Shown piece by piece: positions 3,681 through 49,240 of a stretch of DNA of 64,000 nt (its first letter is position 1; each line of letters starts with the position of its first letter). Below the pieces are notes generated by a model, which had not been told where the DNA came from, made no database searches, and saw nothing but the letters and a program-made list of their open reading frames with translations. The stretch comes from Bacillota bacterium (GTDB lineage Bacteria > Bacillota_A > Clostridia > Lachnospirales > Lachnospiraceae), in the NCBI GenBank assembly GCA_023407175.1, contig JAEYMU010000017.1, positions 1-64,000 of the forward strand, given 5' to 3'. The translations under genes and the position numbers were made by a program.

Positions 3681-3732
3681 TTGACAATCATTATAGACAA
3701 TTGTATATTATTATCATAGACAAATGTAGATC
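3681..3732 (+). promoter_or_regulatory. blaI-type promoter with two BlaI-like operators
   Basis: TTGACA (3681-3686), 17-base spacer, TATATT (3704-3709). Two copies of a GACAA-N-TGTA dyad, TATAGACAATTGTATAT (3692-3708) and ATAGACAAATGTAGAT (3716-3731), cover the spacer/-10 and the start region. This is the known layout for BlaI/MecI autoregulation (core ACA-N2-TGT); binding here is inferred. Confidence 0.75.
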
Positions 3733-3798: not shown

Positions 3799-4212
3799 AT
3801 GAAAGCGGAACCATCAAAAGAAGCATCCGGAGGTAACTCCATAACCAGATTACCCGAGACAGAATATGAGGTCATGGCAGCCATATGGCGAAACCTTCCT
3901 CCGGTAACCACAACAACACTTATGAATCAGCTGGGCAGGGAAAAGGGCTGGAAGCTTCAGACTCTGGTCAGCCTATTAAACCGTCTGACAGAACGTGGTT
4001 TTTTGCGCAGTGAGAAGCTGGGGAAGGAACGAACCTATTATCCCTGCATCAAACAGGAGGATTACATCCAGTATGAAACGGAGCTGTTTGTGGAACGGTA
4101 TCATGGGAATTCGTTATTTCAGCTGGTGAATGCATTTTCCGGAAGTAAGAGACTAAGCAAGGAAGAGATTGACGAATTAAGCTTGTGGTTAAAGGACCAA
4201 GAGGACAAATAA
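3799..4212 (+). CDS. BlaI/MecI/CopY-family transcriptional repressor
   Basis: 137-aa winged-helix repressor. The core LPETEYEVMAAIWRNLPPVTTTTLMNQLGREKGWKLQTLVSLLNRLTERGFLRSEKLGKERTYYP matches the BlaI DNA-binding domain, and the C-terminal part gives the dimerisation helices. In characterised systems a partner BlaR1 sensor triggers loss of this repressor. Here the next gene starts one base after the stop and encodes such a sensor. ATG 3799 has a purine-rich site (GGAAGGAAGAGGG, 3777-3788) somewhat far upstream. Two matching operators lie in its promoter. No beta-lactamase gene is adjacent, so the regulated target may be the operon itself or unlinked cell-wall genes. Confidence 0.9.
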   Translation: MKAEPSKEASGGNSITRLPETEYEVMAAIWRNLPPVTTTTLMNQLGREKGWKLQTLVSLLNRLTERGFLRSEKLGKERTYYPCIKQEDYIQYETELFVERYHGNSLFQLVNAFSGSKRLSKEEIDELSLWLKDQEDK

Positions 4213-4213
4213 T

Positions 4214-5854
4214 ATGGTTGCTGTATTTTATCTATGCCTTACAAATTCTCTTAATATGGCTCTCTTTATCCTGATGCTGGTCCTCCTGGAACCATTGATA
4301 AAGAAATATGTTTCTGCGGTTTGTCTATACCGTCTTTGGGTAATCCTGCTGATTGCCTTGCTCATACCGGTGCGTTTTGAGATTACGAAAGCATTCTATT
4401 ATATCAGCCCGCCGCGGATGGCTGTGGAAGACAATGCTTTTGTAGAACAGGAGATACAAGGCAGCAGTGACCTCGACCATGTCACCGGTGAGAATGACCT
4501 GGTGCAGGAGCAGTTAACTCGGAATGCAGGCGCAGGGAAAAGCTCGCAGGAAAGGGCAGCTTTATGGAAGCAGTTACTGCAAGCCGGTTTTCTCTGTTTG
4601 CTTCAGAACGGATACGTATTCCTATGCCTGCTTTGGGGTCTTGGAGCTATTATTCTGCTCACCATAAAAGGCAGTCAGTATTATGCCTGTCTGAGAAGAT
4701 TAAGAAGATTTATGGTACCTGTTAAGCAGGAGGAATTTCGCGAGGTATATGGACAATGCATCCGGGAATTGACTCATAAATACTCAGGAGGACTGAGGAA
4801 GGCTGATAAAATTCAGGTTTGGAAATGCTCGGTTATTACAAGCCCTATGACAATCGGAATTCTTAGACCTAAAATTTTGTTGCCGGAGGAAATATATTTA
4901 CCGAAAGACCTTTATTTTATATTAAAGCATGAGCTGATCCATATCCTAAGACGGGATTCCCTGGTAAAATTAATCCGGCTGATTGTTTTGGCTCTTCATT
5001 GGTACAATCCGTTTTGCTATATATTATACGGTCATTTGGAGGATTGGTGTGAAACCTCCTGCGATGAAGAGGTTCTTTCGAATTCAACCAGATCGGATTG
5101 CATCAGCTATGGCAGGCTCTTACTAAAGAGCGCCACAGTTAAGAACAATACAACAGCCTTGGTCAATCTGTATGGAGGAAAAAATAATATGAAATTCAGA
5201 CTGCATTCCATCCTGAATTATAGGAAAAAATATACCGGCAATCTGCTGGCATTGCTATTACTGGCGGTTGTTTCTACGACAGTAATTGTTGCAACAATGA
5301 ACCAAACACAGGCTTCAGCCTCTGATGACAGTAAAATAACGACGGAACAGTCCGGACAGCCGGCAGAAAGGGCAGAGGCTGGTATCACAGCTGCTCCAGA
5401 CGACAGTGACCGGAATCCCACCGAAGCTGTCAATCAGGAGGACGGGGTGGCAGCCTCTGCTACACAGGATGTTCTGACCACAGCTACACTGCGTGAAACA
5501 ATAGTGGAATATGCCATAGAGGCTGAGGGCACCCCGTTTTTGTGGGGAGGCAATGACTTAAATACCGGTGTTGATGCCAGTGGATTTACCCAGGCTGTTT
5601 TCGGGGAATTTGGCTATGAACTTCCCAGAACATCAAGGGAACAGGCAGCGCAATATGAGGAAGTGTCCCTGGACAGCCTGCAACCGGGTGATTTAATCTT
5701 TTATGAAACCACAGGCGATAACAAAGTCAGTCATGTTGGGATTTATATTGGAAATGATGAAATCATTCATGCAAAGAATGCACAGAGAGGCGTTGTGATT
5801 GAAGACATGAACTACCGTACTCCATTCAGCGCGGGCAGGGTTATTACAGAATAA
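4214..5854 (+). CDS. BlaR1/MecR1-like M56 metalloprotease sensor fused to a catalytically altered NlpC/P60 domain
   Basis: 546 aa. Membrane segments are visible near residues 8-27, 38-55, 124-150 and 343-362. The cytoplasmic M56 zinc-protease domain carries HELIH (239-243) and EDWCETSCDEEV downstream. After the last membrane segment comes an outside linker rich in T/A/D, then an NlpC/P60 domain (about 425-546). In that family the catalytic Cys lies in G-x-DCSGF; here it reads GVDASGF, Ala455, codon GCC. The His (VSHVGI, H507) and the third polar position (IIHAKN, H519) remain. BlaR1 normally has a penicillin-binding sensor in this position. I infer a peptidoglycan-sensing receptor that binds but does not cleave. 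It is translated with blaI and ends at a strong terminator. Confidence 0.85.
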   Translation: MVAVFYLCLTNSLNMALFILMLVLLEPLIKKYVSAVCLYRLWVILLIALLIPVRFEITKAFYYISPPRMAVEDNAFVEQEIQGSSDLDHVTGENDLVQEQLTRNAGAGKSSQERAALWKQLLQAGFLCLLQNGYVFLCLLWGLGAIILLTIKGSQYYACLRRLRRFMVPVKQEEFREVYGQCIRELTHKYSGGLRKADKIQVWKCSVITSPMTIGILRPKILLPEEIYLPKDLYFILKHELIHILRRDSLVKLIRLIVLALHWYNPFCYILYGHLEDWCETSCDEEVLSNSTRSDCISYGRLLLKSATVKNNTTALVNLYGGKNNMKFRLHSILNYRKKYTGNLLALLLLAVVSTTVIVATMNQTQASASDDSKITTEQSGQPAERAEAGITAAPDDSDRNPTEAVNQEDGVAASATQDVLTTATLRETIVEYAIEAEGTPFLWGGNDLNTGVDASGFTQAVFGEFGYELPRTSREQAAQYEEVSLDSLQPGDLIFYETTGDNKVSHVGIYIGNDEIIHAKNAQRGVVIEDMNYRTPFSAGRVITE

Positions 5855-5909
5855 TATGATAGAAAATCATCAGCTAAGTACCGAGCCGGCAGACAGTTAA
5901 TAATCCAGT

Positions 5910-5961
5910 AGAAGGTCTCCTAAAGCAATGAGCTTCATTGCTTCGGGGGACCTTCTTTTTT
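5910..5961 (+). terminator. Rho-independent terminator after the blaI-blaR1-like operon
   Basis: Hairpin AGAAGGTCTCC...AAGCAATGA (5910-5932) with TTCATTGCTTCGGGGGACCTTCT (5934-5956), then a T-run. About 56 bases after the stop codon. Confidence 0.85.
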
Positions 5962-6030: not shown

Positions 6031-6059
6031 TTGACAATATGTGGTACTTGCTTTAATAT
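6031..6059 (+). promoter_or_regulatory. Sigma-A-type promoter for the 333-aa secreted protein
   Basis: TTGACA (6031-6036), 17-base spacer, TAATAT (6054-6059), with a leader of about 115 bases before ATG 6184. Confidence 0.75.
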
Positions 6060-6183: not shown

Positions 6184-7185
6184 ATGAAACGAAAATTATC
6201 ACTGGTATTGGTATTAACATTAGTATTAACATTTCTTGGCAGCTCGATAGCCCATGCGGATACGGCAACGGATTTAAGCAAAAGGGAGAAAGCAATTGTC
6301 AAGGCCTATGTTAAAACAGTAGAGACGGGAGATTTAAAGTATCTTAATAAGTATAAATATCCGGGCATGACTTATCAGGAGCCCGGATATGCGGGTTTAT
6401 ATAATGTTAAAATCATTTCGCCCAAGTATTCCAAAAAGTATATTAAAAGTGAGAAGCTATACTGTCTGTATGTAACGGGAACATTGGCTGTATCCGAAGA
6501 GGATTATTTAGTACTTGCGAAGATGAGAATAGGTATCTATATAAAAAAGAAAGGAAATACAGCATATGCCTATCTTGAGAAACAAACAGATGGGAAAGAC
6601 ATCTATGCGGATCAGATTATTACGGTCGATAAGCTGTCTAAATCTGCAATAACCGAATTAGAAAAGTATCTTGTGGGGCTATATGGCGAAGATAATGGGA
6701 AGGCCTTGATGTATCCGGACAGTACAGAAGAAATTAAGAGTACGGAGTTTCAAAGTGATGACGGGAAGGAAAGCCTTACAGCACCGTCTACATGGACAAA
6801 TTATGAGGAGCTAAGCGATGATGCGATATTGCATATAGCTGACCGTTCCAATGAAAGATATCTCATTGTATTAAAGGAAACAAAAGAATATTTCAGCGAG
6901 GATATGTCTCTTAACGATTACACTGAGGCAGTCAAGAGCCGTGTTGTGGGTAATGTAGAGAATGCCAGTATAGGAGATATGGAGGAGCTTGAAGTAAATG
7001 GTAATAATGCACAGTGCTTTATAATGTCAGGAGAGTACAGCAAAATTAAGATTACATACATATTCATGTGTATTGAAACATCCAATGACTTCTATATGAT
7101 AATGGGCTGGACACCAACTATGAACTTTAGTGAAAGCAAGGATGAGATACTGGAGATTATGAAGAGCTTTAAGGAAACGGAATAA
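6184..7185 (+). CDS. Secreted protein of unknown function (333 aa)
   Basis: Residues 1-25 form a signal peptide (KRK, long leucine/valine core, AHA cleavage site); there is no lipobox Cys and no anchor, so the product should be released. The N-terminal half (about 30-170) is lysine- and tyrosine-rich. The C-terminal half (about 195-333), with LTAPSTWTNYEEL, ILHIADRSNERYLIVLKE and MIMGWTPTMNFSESKDEILEIMKSFK, looks like the PsbP/DcrB-like fold seen in many secreted Firmicute proteins; this is a resemblance only. ATG 6184 follows GGGGAAAG. It has its own promoter and terminator, so it is monocistronic. Confidence 0.8.
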   Translation: MKRKLSLVLVLTLVLTFLGSSIAHADTATDLSKREKAIVKAYVKTVETGDLKYLNKYKYPGMTYQEPGYAGLYNVKIISPKYSKKYIKSEKLYCLYVTGTLAVSEEDYLVLAKMRIGIYIKKKGNTAYAYLEKQTDGKDIYADQIITVDKLSKSAITELEKYLVGLYGEDNGKALMYPDSTEEIKSTEFQSDDGKESLTAPSTWTNYEELSDDAILHIADRSNERYLIVLKETKEYFSEDMSLNDYTEAVKSRVVGNVENASIGDMEELEVNGNNAQCFIMSGEYSKIKITYIFMCIETSNDFYMIMGWTPTMNFSESKDEILEIMKSFKETE

Positions 7186-44756: not shown

Positions 44757-47507
44757 TTATACAACAGTAAGTCTTGTCTGCTGCATGGACAGGAGGGAAT
44801 TTCTGATTTTTTCATAAAGATGCTCCAGTCCTATGCTCCGGAGAACCTTTTTGTCGAATGCAATTCTCGCTTCATCCCTTAGTTCATCTACCGTATCCAT
44901 AACCTCCCGGTTTTTAATTGCCTGAAATAAATTCAGGATCTCGGCAGCATCAGGAGCAGAAATAATATTGGGATTAATCATAAAGATAGTTTTAAAATTA
45001 GAGCTGCTGGCGTCCAAAACACCCAGACCCCTGCCAAAGCCGATGGCTTCTATGGCAAACATGCCGTATACCGAATTCAGCAGAGCATGTGCCAGGTCCA
45101 GGGACACGCTATGCTCCTTCCATAATAACCGGGTAAACCTTTGATCGACAAAGGTTCTTTCCTCAAACCGGGCAACAAATAACCTTTTATTCGGATTTAA
45201 TGCGGTTACCAGATCTGCCTTGGAGGAATCCTCCATCTCATACCAATAGCTCCCGGCTTTTTGTAAGGCCACAGGAAGCTTTTGCCCTGTGCCGTTCGTA
45301 ATATTTTCAAATTTCTCAATCCATGCCAATGCACCCATATGCCCTAACTGCCTTAGCTGCTCCTTTGAGCGATGGCAGCAAAAGGAGATGATATCGGCCT
45401 TTGCCGTATATGATTTTAGCTGGGCCGGGTTTTTTAAAACCGGCCGGATATATTCCTCTTCAATTCCATTATTGGGGCAGGGATAGAATAAATCATTCCA
45501 GCCCCGTCTCTCTCCCCGCTTTACCTCGAATACACGATGGATGGGAGCGAGGCAATCCCGCATAGCTCCCATCCAGGAAACATCGTGAAACAGAGTGTTT
45601 AATGCCACGCCCTTGCTTTGTATTTCAAGGATTTCGCCAAGTTCATAGCTTTTCATTTTCACTAAATCAGGATAAAGCTCTTCTCTTAATACAATGCTGT
45701 TTACAATGCCGTCCAGTTCATTGCCTGATAAATGCTTTATATCCTTTTGTGTAAGGCAAAAATTAATATCTGAATGATAATCGGGCTCTGCTATTTCTTT
45801 TTTCTCCAGGACAACTAAAGTGGCGACAACATCGGCATTTTCAAACCATCTCCCCGAATTGCTAAGTACAATGGTCCGGATTTGATAATAGTAAGATAAT
45901 GCCCTGAAAAAATCTTTGCCTGTTTCTGTTCCCAGCCAGGAGTTTGACAGGATAATACCCAGCTTACCGGCATCCTCCAGCAGCTCATGAATTTTAAACG
46001 GCAAATACATATATAAATCTGTCTTGCCCAGTCTAAAATTGATACCGGTATTTTGCCCGATTATTTTCGCATATTTTAAAATATGTGCCCCCTCATCTGC
46101 AGCAATTGTATTGTATTTTACAAAGGGCAGGTTTGTGACTACTGCGCCGAGGCGGGGAAATGTCCTGATGATATCTGAACCATCCGTAGGATTTTTTATA
46201 ACAAGCTCTTTTCCGACCTCCTGATCAAACAAATTCATCTGAAACATATGAATCGGGATATTCACCGCATCAATGCTGGTCAGTGCGATATTGGATATCT
46301 GAAGGGGATAGGCGTATTTGTCGGATATCCAGGTGGTTGAAAAGGTGGCTGCTGCCGATTTCAAACGCTTCATTTTGTTATGAATGATAGCCTTTGCAAT
46401 GGTCCCTGTGCCAGAGCACATATCGGCACAATGTAAATTCCAATTATCCACAGTGATTTGACAGAGCAGCTCGGCCAAATACATGGGTGTGGAAAACTGT
46501 CCCCGAATTTCCCGCTTTGTTATATTTACAGTTTTCTCAAGCAGGTCCTGCAATACACTTTGGCTGATATTTTCAATCCGGTTACTGTACAGAAATTGAT
46601 TAAAATCTATAATATCAATCCATACATCCTCCGGTATCCGGTCATTATATTCAATTCTTTGAAATACATGATAGAAGTCGCCCTGGCTGATAATTTCATC
46701 AATTACAAGATTACCATCCTCAGGTGACGTTGTGTAATCAATGTTTTTAATGAGCTCGGCGCAGTTATGGTATTTTTTGATCAGATTGGCAAAGATAATC
46801 CGGTTGGTCCAATTCAGCAGAATGGACTTAGCATAGGCGGAGAACATATTGGTTTCATCCTTTTCATATTCCACATGAAAGGAATCCCACCAAACCTTTA
46901 TCCTGCGTTCCATCTTCATATTGCCGGCCGCTTCGGATTGAAAATGCTCCGCTACCAATTCCTTATTCCGCTCAATCAGAGCTGTCATCAGATTATCCGT
47001 CAGCACATCAAGGATGGGTGCTGCGGACAGACTGCCGCTAACAAAGAAAGTATTAATTTCAATAATGATTTCCTGGAGAATGGGAACCCATTCATCCCGG
47101 TACAATCTGACATCGTCACGGGTCCTGATATGGTCGGTGCCTGTCCAAACCTTCGCTTCGCAATATTCCCCCAAGGTATTCCTTATGTATAATTTTCCAT
47201 AGGTAAAGTTCCAGATGAAAAAGCTGTTCAAGCCCAGAGCCTTTGCCTTTCGCGTGGCATCTTTAATAAAATCGTCATCAGTGATCAGCACGTCGGGCAT
47301 CTTTAATTCCCAGCCCTGAAGAATTTTGGTCTGGGCTTCATCCTCATACAAAAGGACATCAGGAAACATACTTTTCTTATTGACGGAAAGAGTACTTTCC
47401 CCTCCGGCTCTTTTAATACGCAGATTTAGTTCCTGCAGCATGAGATTAATCTCTGTAATGATTTCAATTGCCCAGCTTCTTTCGTTGCGCCTTACGATAG
47501 TTCCCAA
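44757..47507 (-). CDS. Type IIG-like restriction enzyme: PD-(D/E)XK nuclease fused to adenine DNA methyltransferase
   Basis: 916 aa. The N-terminus fits a PD-(D/E)XK nuclease: FPD (Asp50) and ELK (Glu67, Lys69), followed by NSFFIWNFTYGKLYI. The middle holds an N6-adenine methyltransferase: GQFSTP (336-341), motif I ADMCSGTGTIAKAII (361-375) and motif IV NLPF (459-462) in place of the usual NPP(Y/F). The C-terminal 300 residues should recognise the DNA target. It starts with TTG at 47507, GGAG 8 bases upstream, only 2 bases after the preceding methylase gene. I infer a combined cutting and modifying enzyme; the Leu in motif IV leaves methylation activity open. Confidence 0.8.
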   Translation of the reverse strand: MGTIVRRNERSWAIEIITEINLMLQELNLRIKRAGGESTLSVNKKSMFPDVLLYEDEAQTKILQGWELKMPDVLITDDDFIKDATRKAKALGLNSFFIWNFTYGKLYIRNTLGEYCEAKVWTGTDHIRTRDDVRLYRDEWVPILQEIIIEINTFFVSGSLSAAPILDVLTDNLMTALIERNKELVAEHFQSEAAGNMKMERRIKVWWDSFHVEYEKDETNMFSAYAKSILLNWTNRIIFANLIKKYHNCAELIKNIDYTTSPEDGNLVIDEIISQGDFYHVFQRIEYNDRIPEDVWIDIIDFNQFLYSNRIENISQSVLQDLLEKTVNITKREIRGQFSTPMYLAELLCQITVDNWNLHCADMCSGTGTIAKAIIHNKMKRLKSAAATFSTTWISDKYAYPLQISNIALTSIDAVNIPIHMFQMNLFDQEVGKELVIKNPTDGSDIIRTFPRLGAVVTNLPFVKYNTIAADEGAHILKYAKIIGQNTGINFRLGKTDLYMYLPFKIHELLEDAGKLGIILSNSWLGTETGKDFFRALSYYYQIRTIVLSNSGRWFENADVVATLVVLEKKEIAEPDYHSDINFCLTQKDIKHLSGNELDGIVNSIVLREELYPDLVKMKSYELGEILEIQSKGVALNTLFHDVSWMGAMRDCLAPIHRVFEVKRGERRGWNDLFYPCPNNGIEEEYIRPVLKNPAQLKSYTAKADIISFCCHRSKEQLRQLGHMGALAWIEKFENITNGTGQKLPVALQKAGSYWYEMEDSSKADLVTALNPNKRLFVARFEERTFVDQRFTRLLWKEHSVSLDLAHALLNSVYGMFAIEAIGFGRGLGVLDASSSNFKTIFMINPNIISAPDAAEILNLFQAIKNREVMDTVDELRDEARIAFDKKVLRSIGLEHLYEKIRNSLLSMQQTRLTVV

Positions 47508-47509
47508 TA

Positions 47510-48364
47510 TTATCTCTCCTCGAACTCTAAAATCAAATTCTTGTGCGCGATGTTCTTCTTTGTTTTCTTATCCAGATTCTGCCATGCGAAAAACAGCCTT
47601 CGTTTTGCAACATCAATATAATCGATCTCCTCTTTTTTAAACAGAGCGACATTTTCATTTTTCTCAATGCCGATAAAATTCCGTCCTTCCATCAGGGCGG
47701 CAACTAAAAAGGAGCCGCTGCCAAAGGTATTATCCAGAACAACCTCTCCCGGATTCGTGTAGGTCCTGATCAAATACCGTCCTAATTCAATGGGCTTTTG
47801 AGTCGGGTGCAGTACGGTGCCTTCACTTTCTGCGGTTTTCACATAGATAATATCCGTAGGGTACCTTTCCCCCTCACTGGTGACATGGACAGGGTCAAAA
47901 TCTCCGTAATTACCGCAGAGCTGGTCCTTTCTGATCCCTTTATCATAGGGCTCACCCTGAGTCATCTGGGGATGGTAGGTGGGTTGTTTTTTATAAAATA
48001 CACAGATATCTTCATGCTTTCTTAAGGGCTGCTTCTTAGCATTTAGGAAATTAGTCGATTTTGATTTTTCCCAAACCCATTTATATTTGAAAATCTTTTC
48101 CTGGCTTAAGATTAGCTTTGCAGTGAATATCCCATTGGAGGTGAGCACAATGGCTCCGTTCGGCTTTATTACACGGATGTATTGTTTCCAAAGCTGATCC
48201 AGCGGGATGTAGCAATCCCATTCATTTTGCGTCATTCCATAGGGTAAATCGCAAAGCACCATATCAACACTGCCGTCCGGTATCTCGTTCATGTACTCCA
48301 GACAATCACCCTCAAAAAGTTTGTTAACGACATGATCTATATTAATTTTTTCAAGCTCCTTCAT
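47510..48364 (-). CDS. Site-specific DNA methyltransferase, beta-type (N6-adenine or N4-cytosine)
   Basis: 284 aa. Motif IV comes first (CDLPYGMTQNEWD, a known variant of DPPY), then HPTQKPIELGRYLI and the AdoMet-binding motif DNTFGSGSFLVAALMEGRNFIGIE, which is the beta-class order. Middle gene of a three-gene minus-strand operon; it should protect one strand of the site cut by the 916-aa protein. ATG 48364 has GAGGT about 7 bases upstream. Confidence 0.9.
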   Translation of the reverse strand: MKELEKINIDHVVNKLFEGDCLEYMNEIPDGSVDMVLCDLPYGMTQNEWDCYIPLDQLWKQYIRVIKPNGAIVLTSNGIFTAKLILSQEKIFKYKWVWEKSKSTNFLNAKKQPLRKHEDICVFYKKQPTYHPQMTQGEPYDKGIRKDQLCGNYGDFDPVHVTSEGERYPTDIIYVKTAESEGTVLHPTQKPIELGRYLIRTYTNPGEVVLDNTFGSGSFLVAALMEGRNFIGIEKNENVALFKKEEIDYIDVAKRRLFFAWQNLDKKTKKNIAHKNLILEFEER

Positions 48365-48520
48365 GCTTTACCTCACATTCTGCCTTAAAGCAGTTCATAA
48401 TAGAAGTTATCAGGATGTACACGCGTTTCGCTCGGCGCCCGCTTCATACCTGTCGATATTATACCTCAATTTGTACGCGAACACAAGTTCTGCTTTGCTT
48501 TTTGTTAATAGTATGAAGTA

Positions 48521-49240
48521 CTACTGTGTACCAAGCATTCGTTTCCGGCTGGCTTCAAAATAAGTCTCATCAATTTCGATGCCAATAAAGCGGCGGTTTA
48601 ATTCTCTTGCTGCAACACCGGTTGAGGCAACGCCCATAAAAAGATCGAGTACAATATCCTGCTCCCGGCTGGCAACCTCAATAATTCGCTTGAGAACGGC
48701 AATGGGCTTTTGGGTAGGGTGCTTTGGAGATTTCAGACGCTCCTTCCCCATACAGATCGGGTTTTCAATAAAATTATGCATTCCGCTCTGCTTCGAGAAA
48801 TTCCAGGTATGTCCCTTGTTCCACATACAGACAATCAACTCACAGCTGTTTAAAAAGGAGGATTTGCGGATATTGGGAACCGGGTTGGTTTTGTGCCAGA
48901 CCATAAACTGAAAGGTGTCAAATTCATTATCGAAGGCCTCGTGCCATTTTCCGACCAGATTATAGCTGGTAAAGATAAAGATATTGCCGGTGGGGGAAAG
49001 AATCCGTTTAAATTCACAGACAAAATCAGCCGGGGCCAGTTCCTTTAAGTCCCATTTGGCCACATCATTATTGATGGCATTTCTCCATTCAAAAATCATA
49101 TTACCGGTGGAATATTTTGCAAGGTTGTAGGGAGGATCACAGAGAATGAGCTTAATGCTGCCGTCAGGTATTTCCTTCAGCTTCTCCGTACAATCCCCGT
49201 GCAGCAGAAGATATTTTTCAATGGAATTTACATCAATCAT
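48521..49240 (-). CDS. Second site-specific DNA methyltransferase, beta-type
   Basis: 239 aa. CDPPYNLAKYSTGNM (motif IV) precedes KHPTQKPIAVLKRII and DLFMGVASTGVAARELNRRFIGIE (AdoMet binding). First gene of the restriction operon, start ATG 49240 after GGGGAGG; 156 bases separate it from the next methylase, with nothing recognisable inside. Two different beta-class methylases beside one nuclease fit an asymmetric recognition site modified on both strands. Confidence 0.9.
   Translation of the reverse strand: MIDVNSIEKYLLLHGDCTEKLKEIPDGSIKLILCDPPYNLAKYSTGNMIFEWRNAINNDVAKWDLKELAPADFVCEFKRILSPTGNIFIFTSYNLVGKWHEAFDNEFDTFQFMVWHKTNPVPNIRKSSFLNSCELIVCMWNKGHTWNFSKQSGMHNFIENPICMGKERLKSPKHPTQKPIAVLKRIIEVASREQDIVLDLFMGVASTGVAARELNRRFIGIEIDETYFEASRKRMLGTQ

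Follow-up and report, generated by a model that had tools for sequence, protein, structure and literature searches.

The window analysed here, a stretch of 64,000 nucleotides from a Lachnospiraceae contig (JAEYMU010000017.1), carries a two-gene unit of the BlaI/BlaR1 kind whose receptor joins an M56 membrane protease to a C-terminal NlpC/P60 domain, a peptidoglycan-hydrolase fold in which alanine occupies the position of the catalytic cysteine. We consider it probable that this domain binds a fragment of the cell wall without cutting it and that the receptor then relieves repression by BlaI. The sequence itself shows the architecture of the receptor, the residues of its protease, the recurrent loss of the nucleophile from an otherwise retained pocket, and the presence of a BlaI partner and of a double operator; it is on these that the reading is built. 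The features referred to below are the following, with positions given in the window.

3681..3709, + strand: sigma-70-type promoter of the blaI-receptor operon, TTGACA-17-TATATT, 11/12 consensus
3694..3707, + strand: putative operator 1, TAGACAATTGTATA, overlapping the -10 box; an equivalent site is present in 6/6 homologous promoters
3717..3730, + strand: putative operator 2, TAGACAAATGTAGA, 23 bases downstream of operator 1; the same sequence is present in 6/6 homologous promoters
3799..4212, + strand: BlaI/MecI-family repressor, 137 aa; PF03965 (Penicillinase_R), E 9.3e-24, 84.4 bits, cut-off 22.6
4928..4942, + strand: zinc-binding HELIH of the M56 protease, at residues 239-243, kept in all rows covering the motif
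5243..5299, + strand: last membrane helix, residues 344-362, hydropathy peak 2.55
5300..5485, + strand: variable linker, residues 363-424, median identity to relatives 19%
5486..5851, + strand: NlpC/P60 domain (PF00877), predicted to lie outside, residues 425-546, median identity 65%
5576..5578, + strand: codon GCC for Ala455 at the position of the catalytic Cys, within the motif GVDASGF at 452-458
5732..5734, + strand: His507, the retained His of the catalytic dyad, in 40/40 fusions
5768..5770, + strand: His519, the retained third active-site His, in 40/40 fusions
5909..5958, + strand: strong terminator-like hairpin and T run after the receptor stop codon, predicted at -31.6 kcal/mol before TTTTTTCT

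The open reading frame at 4214-5854 on the + strand encodes a protein of 546 aa (P0001) in which Pfam recognises Peptidase_M56 at residues 9-332 (E 1.8e-38) and NLPC_P60 (PF00877) at residues 439-533 (E 2.7e-24, 85.6 bits against a cut-off of 23); the latter domain also matches the PDB entry 7cfl (E 1.7e-18), and on sequence grounds it is an NlpC/P60 fold. At E 0.001 Pfam gives these two domains only and no penicillin-sensor domain; the PDB matches to BlaR1 end at residue 355, and the NCBIfam model blaR1_generic scores 108 bits, below its cut-off of 400 bits. Four membrane-like segments (7-25, 33-51, 133-151 and 344-362) were recognised by hydropathy only, and because the last of them precedes the NlpC/P60 domain this domain should lie outside the cell, by analogy with the orientation of BlaR1. 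An earlier note on this DNA had described the gene as following the BlaR1 plan, with membrane helices, an M56 protease bearing HELIH and an outside NlpC/P60 domain, and had read Ala455 in GVDASGF together with H507 and H519; both descriptions agree with what we find. The catalytic residues of BlaR1, namely H201, E202, H205, D210, E242, D246, Y261 and R294 (PMC9834060), align with H239, E240, H243, D248, E280, D284, Y299 and R329 of P0001. The first four of these are invariant in the 40/40 covering rows and the last four in 41/41 rows, so that P0001, as aligned, has the complete BlaR1 catalytic set and an intact protease; the invariance of these eight residues is one of the grounds for regarding the protein as a receptor of wall fragments.

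A protein database search from P0001, of which the best 120 of 148 matches were examined, returned 39 further proteins with the full M56 + NlpC/P60 architecture, giving 40 fusions with the query; this search, a profile search and the search from the M23 side described below each scored only the ~8000 candidates sharing most words. When P0001 is divided into six regions and compared across 38 rows (P0023 and P0040 being excluded as incomplete), the NlpC/P60 domain is the best conserved, with a median identity to P0001 of 65%, followed by helices 1-2 (63%), the protease core (55%), helix 4 (45%), the helix 2-3 loop on the outside (22%) and the linker (19%). A binding fold without catalysis would fit equally well with a domain that merely anchors or localises the protein by constitutive binding to peptidoglycan, sensing being left to the helix 2-3 loop or to the membrane itself, and RipD of Mycobacterium tuberculosis, which has the same fold, is thought to be a binder (PMC12067865). 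The poor conservation of the helix 2-3 loop is, however, unexpected for a sensing part, and in BlaR1 the sensor is the C-terminal domain (PMC9834060); we therefore regard an anchor as unlikely.

The cell-wall peptidase YkfC holds gamma-D-Glu by an Asp and a Ser, and further residues contact gamma-D-Glu or line the pocket (PMC2954226). We mapped these onto positions 442, 444, 454, 456, 474 and 472 by their location relative to the Cys and to sequence motifs, not by structural alignment, the spacing from Tyr to Cys being one residue longer in the fusions than in YkfC. The pocket residues so defined are widely kept, with Tyr (442) in 37/40, Trp (444) in 38/40, Asp (454) in 40/40, Ser (456) in 39/40, a second Ser (474) in 35/40 and Arg (472) in 40/40 fusions, and both active-site His are present throughout (40/40 and 40/40). 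The window protein itself departs from the pocket in having Phe442 instead of Tyr. Asp256 of YkfC, which reads the free N-terminal Ala (PMC2954226), corresponds to Thr in 37/40 fusions, and a free N-terminus need thus not be required. It has also to be considered that the old fold may have a ligand other than wall peptides, perhaps a partner protein or an antibiotic, much as degenerate M23 folds serve as protein-interaction hubs (PMC9662197); a change of ligand would nevertheless be expected to relax the gamma-D-Glu pocket, which is kept in 35-40 of the 40 fusions, and this explanation strikes us as rather improbable. For a receptor of wall fragments, on the other hand, both the retained pocket and the conservation of the domain speak, and the class of ligand predicted from the pocket is that of gamma-D-Glu stem peptides.

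At the position of the catalytic Cys the 40 fusions (best 120 of 148 matches) have Ser in 24 cases, Ala in 6, Thr in 1 and Cys in 9. The nucleophile is thus missing from 31/40, its commonest substitute being Ser and not Ala; once a further fusion, that of locus L135, is counted, Cys is kept in 10/41. By contrast, NlpC/P60 proteins without M56 from the same search have Cys in 73/73 (likewise among the best 120 of 148 matches), and the difference gives a Fisher p of 4.8e-20, uncorrected for relatedness. A second control found Cys in 85/86 NlpC/P60 domains of 80 loci (80 of 556 relatives), 82 domains being counted by script and the four remaining read by eye; the sole exception is the first domain of a tandem NlpC/P60 pair in Brevibacillus reuszeri (L062), which is without the Cys motif. 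The profile search added two fragments, P0189 with Ala and P0190 with Ser, as well as P0191, a free NlpC/P60 protein with Cys.

A tree of 41 rows, including L135 (Cys) and built with the column of the Cys position removed, requires at least 8 exchanges between Cys and non-Cys, and 12 among all states. Starred inner branches number 17/38, many inner branches being weak, and the starred, well-supported branches carry three changes, at P0036/P0037, at P0030/P0038 and at P0018, a Cys protein nested in a Ser clade; P0029 (Cys) is joined to the window protein with support 96/71, not starred. Ser is encoded at this position by AGT in one locus and by TCG or TCT in two others, which fits separate origins of Ser. 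As aligned, this is a family that has repeatedly dropped its nucleophile with the pocket kept. Together with the high conservation of the domain this suggests that the binding site, but not the chemistry, is under selection, and the loss of Cys in the fusions as against none of the M56-less matches from the same search, with its repeated exchange on the tree, is the further ground for the wall-fragment receptor. A local mutation or sequencing error as the source of Ala455 was rejected, Ala being found also in P0016, P0019, P0022, P0025 and P0026 and in the fragment P0189; since the five complete proteins fall in a clade apart from P0001, the Ala455 of the window probably arose separately. The earlier note had supposed a cell-wall hydrolase fold that lost only its nucleophile, and had made this depend on whether close relatives keep the Cys. 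The supposition stands in so far as the active site is otherwise retained and most relatives are without Cys, which speaks against a local mutation; it does not hold for the whole family, nine members of which, including P0029, have Cys.

These nine Cys members and the 24 with Ser could alternatively be taken to mean that the domain is still a hydrolase, the former being ordinary C40 peptidases and the latter having a slow or trapping nucleophile, in the way that BlaR1 is acylated on Ser; such chemistry would also account for the invariance of both His, which otherwise needs another reason. Yet the six Ala members, that of the window among them, have no nucleophile at this position, and one member has Thr. 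Exchange of Cys for Ser usually abolishes activity in papain-fold enzymes, a further point against continued hydrolysis, which we judge to be quite improbable.

The BlaI gene ends one base before the start codon of the receptor, and with this adjoining arrangement, a promoter with operators ahead of it and a hairpin with a T run after the receptor stop codon, the BlaI-receptor pair looks like a transcription unit of its own; the hairpin is missing from the list produced by the consensus scan. Nearest genomes picked with the Mfd of the window, followed by searches at genus level, led to six homologous fusion loci. The repressor partner that the earlier note had postulated is indeed there, and a PF03965 protein lies immediately upstream of the fusion gene in 6/6 genomes, 77-85% identical to the BlaI of the window, the receptors of the same six loci being 43-53% identical. 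This constant adjacency adds to the case for a wall-fragment receptor acting through BlaI, as does the promoter with its double operator in 7/7 loci.

The homologous loci share the promoter elements (TTGACA, 17 bases, TANANT box) in 6/6 cases, and the seven promoters including that of the window have in common TTGACA, 17 bases of spacer in which most of operator 1 lies, and TAGACAAATGTAGA 23-24 bases further on; the core of operator 1 is changed in L135. The two BlaI-type operators announced by the earlier note were accordingly located at 3694-3707 and 3717-3730, and the pair is conserved in 7/7 promoters. Within the window itself the strict operator pattern has 3 matches against 0.91 expected, a number reached by 9/100 shuffles, and two of the three are one palindrome read on both strands; the loose operator core GACANNTGT occurs 5 times against 4.1 expected, which is chance level. 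The operators count despite these weak window statistics because the same pair recurs in the same place in 6/6 homologous promoters, and we infer that BlaI binds these putative paired sites. For C. thermocellum, DAP-seq is reported to place BlaI proteins on inverted repeats that come in pairs and have a GTCTAT half-site; those BlaI proteins regulate three operons and one (PMC8457756).

Across the six genomes the operator-pair pattern gave nine matches against four for a reversed control: the own promoter in 6/6, one further BlaI-M56 operon (genome G443) and two sites unlike the operator. With the pair at its own promoter in 6/6 genomes, autoregulation of the blaI-receptor operon is likely. A search for a regulon by the exact single operator in the same six genomes found ten sites in own promoters and four isolated ones scattered elsewhere, among which no common gene was seen by eye, the reversed control giving 13 matches, and no output gene beyond the operon is evident from these operator searches. 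The further operon of G443, at 1-1571 of locus L156, has its own promoter with a double operator, which suggests that parallel BlaI-M56 systems coexist in that genome. Another genome (G442) has a second, distant BlaI + M56 pair directly downstream of the fusion pair (L134, 6044-8141), in whose receptor Pfam finds M56 and nothing further.

Other genes surround the operon. Two of the loci (L130, 5935-7561; L131, 11532-13182) have a sigma-70-family gene and a 368-aa partner divergent from blaI; at 1e-5 neither the window nor the remaining four loci contained a relative. After the operon, the window encodes a secreted-looking protein of 333 aa (6184-7185) behind a promoter-like TTGACA-17-TAATAT at 6031-6059; it belongs to no Pfam or NCBIfam family, and the six fusion loci contain no relative of it at 1e-5. 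On the minus strand, at 44757-49240, three DNA methyltransferase genes lie side by side (N6_Mtase/Eco57I and two N6_N4_Mtase) and look like a restriction-modification island.

Fusion-bearing genomes are few. No fusion reached 1e-60 among 397 genomes drawn evenly from one family (with up to three candidates scored per genome, and without a positive control). Scanning genome contigs with the family alignment returned ordinary NlpC/P60 genes, with M56 and NlpC/P60 in one frame in 0/80 loci (80 of 556 relatives), and L025 was rejected as a fusion, its match spanning two separate genes. P0017, a Cys member, is a protein of Anaerocolumna sedimenticola, and the name of P0030, a Ser member, was read as Variimorphobacter; the fusion family appears to live in environmental Lachnospiraceae. 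That the NlpC/P60 domain is a decaying remnant of a receptor heading for loss, as the lost nucleophile and the patchy presence (3/34, 3/15, 0/5, 0/1 and 0/3 genomes in five genera) might suggest, is hardly credible, the domain being the most conserved part of the protein, its other active-site residues staying, and the BlaI partner and operators being in place in 7/7 loci including the window.

For the wall-fragment receptor we propose the following course of events. BlaI would hold down its own promoter via the two operators; a gamma-D-Glu-containing stem peptide or wall fragment would occupy the old active-site pocket and remain uncut; occupancy of the pocket would be signalled through the last membrane helix and switch on the inside zinc protease; and the protease would inactivate BlaI, upon which the promoter would open. 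The parts that we infer are the identity of the ligand as a wall peptide, the role of its binding as the signal, and BlaI as the target of the protease. BlaI and MecI are reported to bind dipeptides of gamma-D-Glu and a diamino acid (PMC3305447), so the theme of wall peptides is already present in the pathway and an outside receptor for the same chemistry would fit. According to a later study of BlaR1, BlaI is cleaved directly and no further component is required (PMC9834060). RipD, in which the NlpC/P60 fold has turned into a peptidoglycan binder (PMC12067865), is a precedent that supports the use of this fold as a binding module. Against the receptor stand the nine members with Cys-His-His, which could be active enzymes, the Phe442 in the pocket of the window protein, the rarity of the fusion and, as the main gap in the mechanism, the lack of an output gene in sight.

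A parallel arrangement emerged from the same search, one match of which (P0118) joins M56 to an M23 domain. Searching from P0118 gave 69 proteins at 1e-20, of which 62 are complete M56 + M23 fusions after removal of P0154 and P0185 (with M56 alone), P0182 and P0186 (without a listed M56 domain), P0187 and P0188 (free M23 proteins) and P0178 (with its frame broken). The three zinc ligands of M23 are kept in 62/62. Two further His, which are not ligands, have been proposed to activate water (PMC9662197), and of these the His of YxH is lost in 28/62 and the first His of HxH in 12/62; exactly one is lost in 40/62, both are kept in 22/62 and both are lost in 0/62, an absence with a hypergeometric probability of 2.5e-4 if relatedness is ignored. 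On a quick tree these changes number at least 13 (YxH) and at least 8 (HxH). The control is thin, with both His read in alignments of two free M23 proteins and three solved enzymes; no free M23 control domains came from further loci or viral contigs, and 391 genomes drawn evenly from the class gave no genome context for the M56 + M23 fusions. A plasmid record of Subdoligranulum variabile (L159, OY725877.1, 3035-6342) has a Penicillinase_R gene, an M56 + M23 gene and a gene for a free M23 protein in one direction; the frame of the M56 + M23 gene is broken in that record and its M23 part has both His. The parallel speaks for a recruitment of disarmed wall hydrolases by M56 receptors, which, if both cases hold, has happened more than once.

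More tentatively, it may well be that M56 proteases have more than once taken on peptidoglycan-hydrolase domains (NlpC/P60 in one lineage and M23 in another), disarmed them with the substrate- or zinc-binding site kept, and become receptors that relieve BlaI-type repression in response to wall fragments. Should this be so, they would make up a class of receptors for wall turnover, and the penicillin receptor BlaR1 would be a special case within it, its sensor likewise resembling an enzyme (a class-D beta-lactamase) with slowed turnover (PMC7593790). It is not settled how Gram-positive bacteria sense the condition of their wall, and BlaR1/BlaI has mostly been studied as a switch of antibiotic resistance; a sensor made from a disarmed peptidase suggests that this machinery may also, or first, have served the sensing of wall fragments. 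The Cys, Ser and Ala members that occur in nature offer a ready-made series, and the double-operator operon a compact reporter.

The closest known systems are those of BlaR1/MecR1 and BlaI/MecI, with which the window operon shares four membrane helices, an inside M56 protease with HExxH and ExxxD, an outside C-terminal domain, an adjacent BlaI-type repressor and, probably, operators in its own promoter. It differs in that their sensor is class-D beta-lactamase-like whereas that of the window receptor is NlpC/P60, in the absence of a third gene, and in an NCBIfam BlaR1 score far below the cut-off. The BlaI systems of C. thermocellum have the paired inverted repeats and the GTCTAT/ATAGAC half-site in common with it and, probably, also autoregulation and very small regulons (PMC8457756); their M56 partners are, however, called BlaR1, and the accessible part of that study describes no NlpC/P60 sensor (PMC8457756). 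Searches of open-access papers yielded no description of an M56 receptor with an NlpC/P60 sensor, and an earlier mention elsewhere is possible. To the C40 wall peptidases YkfC and MepS (Spr) the fusions correspond in fold, by sequence, in the gamma-D-Glu pocket residues and in both active-site His, but their nucleophile is replaced in 31/40 and the domain is joined to a membrane protease. RipD likewise has the NlpC/P60 fold without the Cys and binds peptidoglycan (PMC12067865); in contrast to the fusions, which keep both His, its other two active-site residues are exchanged as well (Ala83-Ser132-Glu144), and the accessible account does not describe it as a membrane signalling protein (PMC12067865). 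Finally, the M56 + M23 fusions, whose two domains are noted in a review of M23 as able to occur in one protein (PMC9662197), resemble the M56 + NlpC/P60 family as M56 receptors with a wall-hydrolase fold in which a catalytic residue is often lost and the zinc ligands are kept, although M23 is an unrelated metallo-hydrolase fold.
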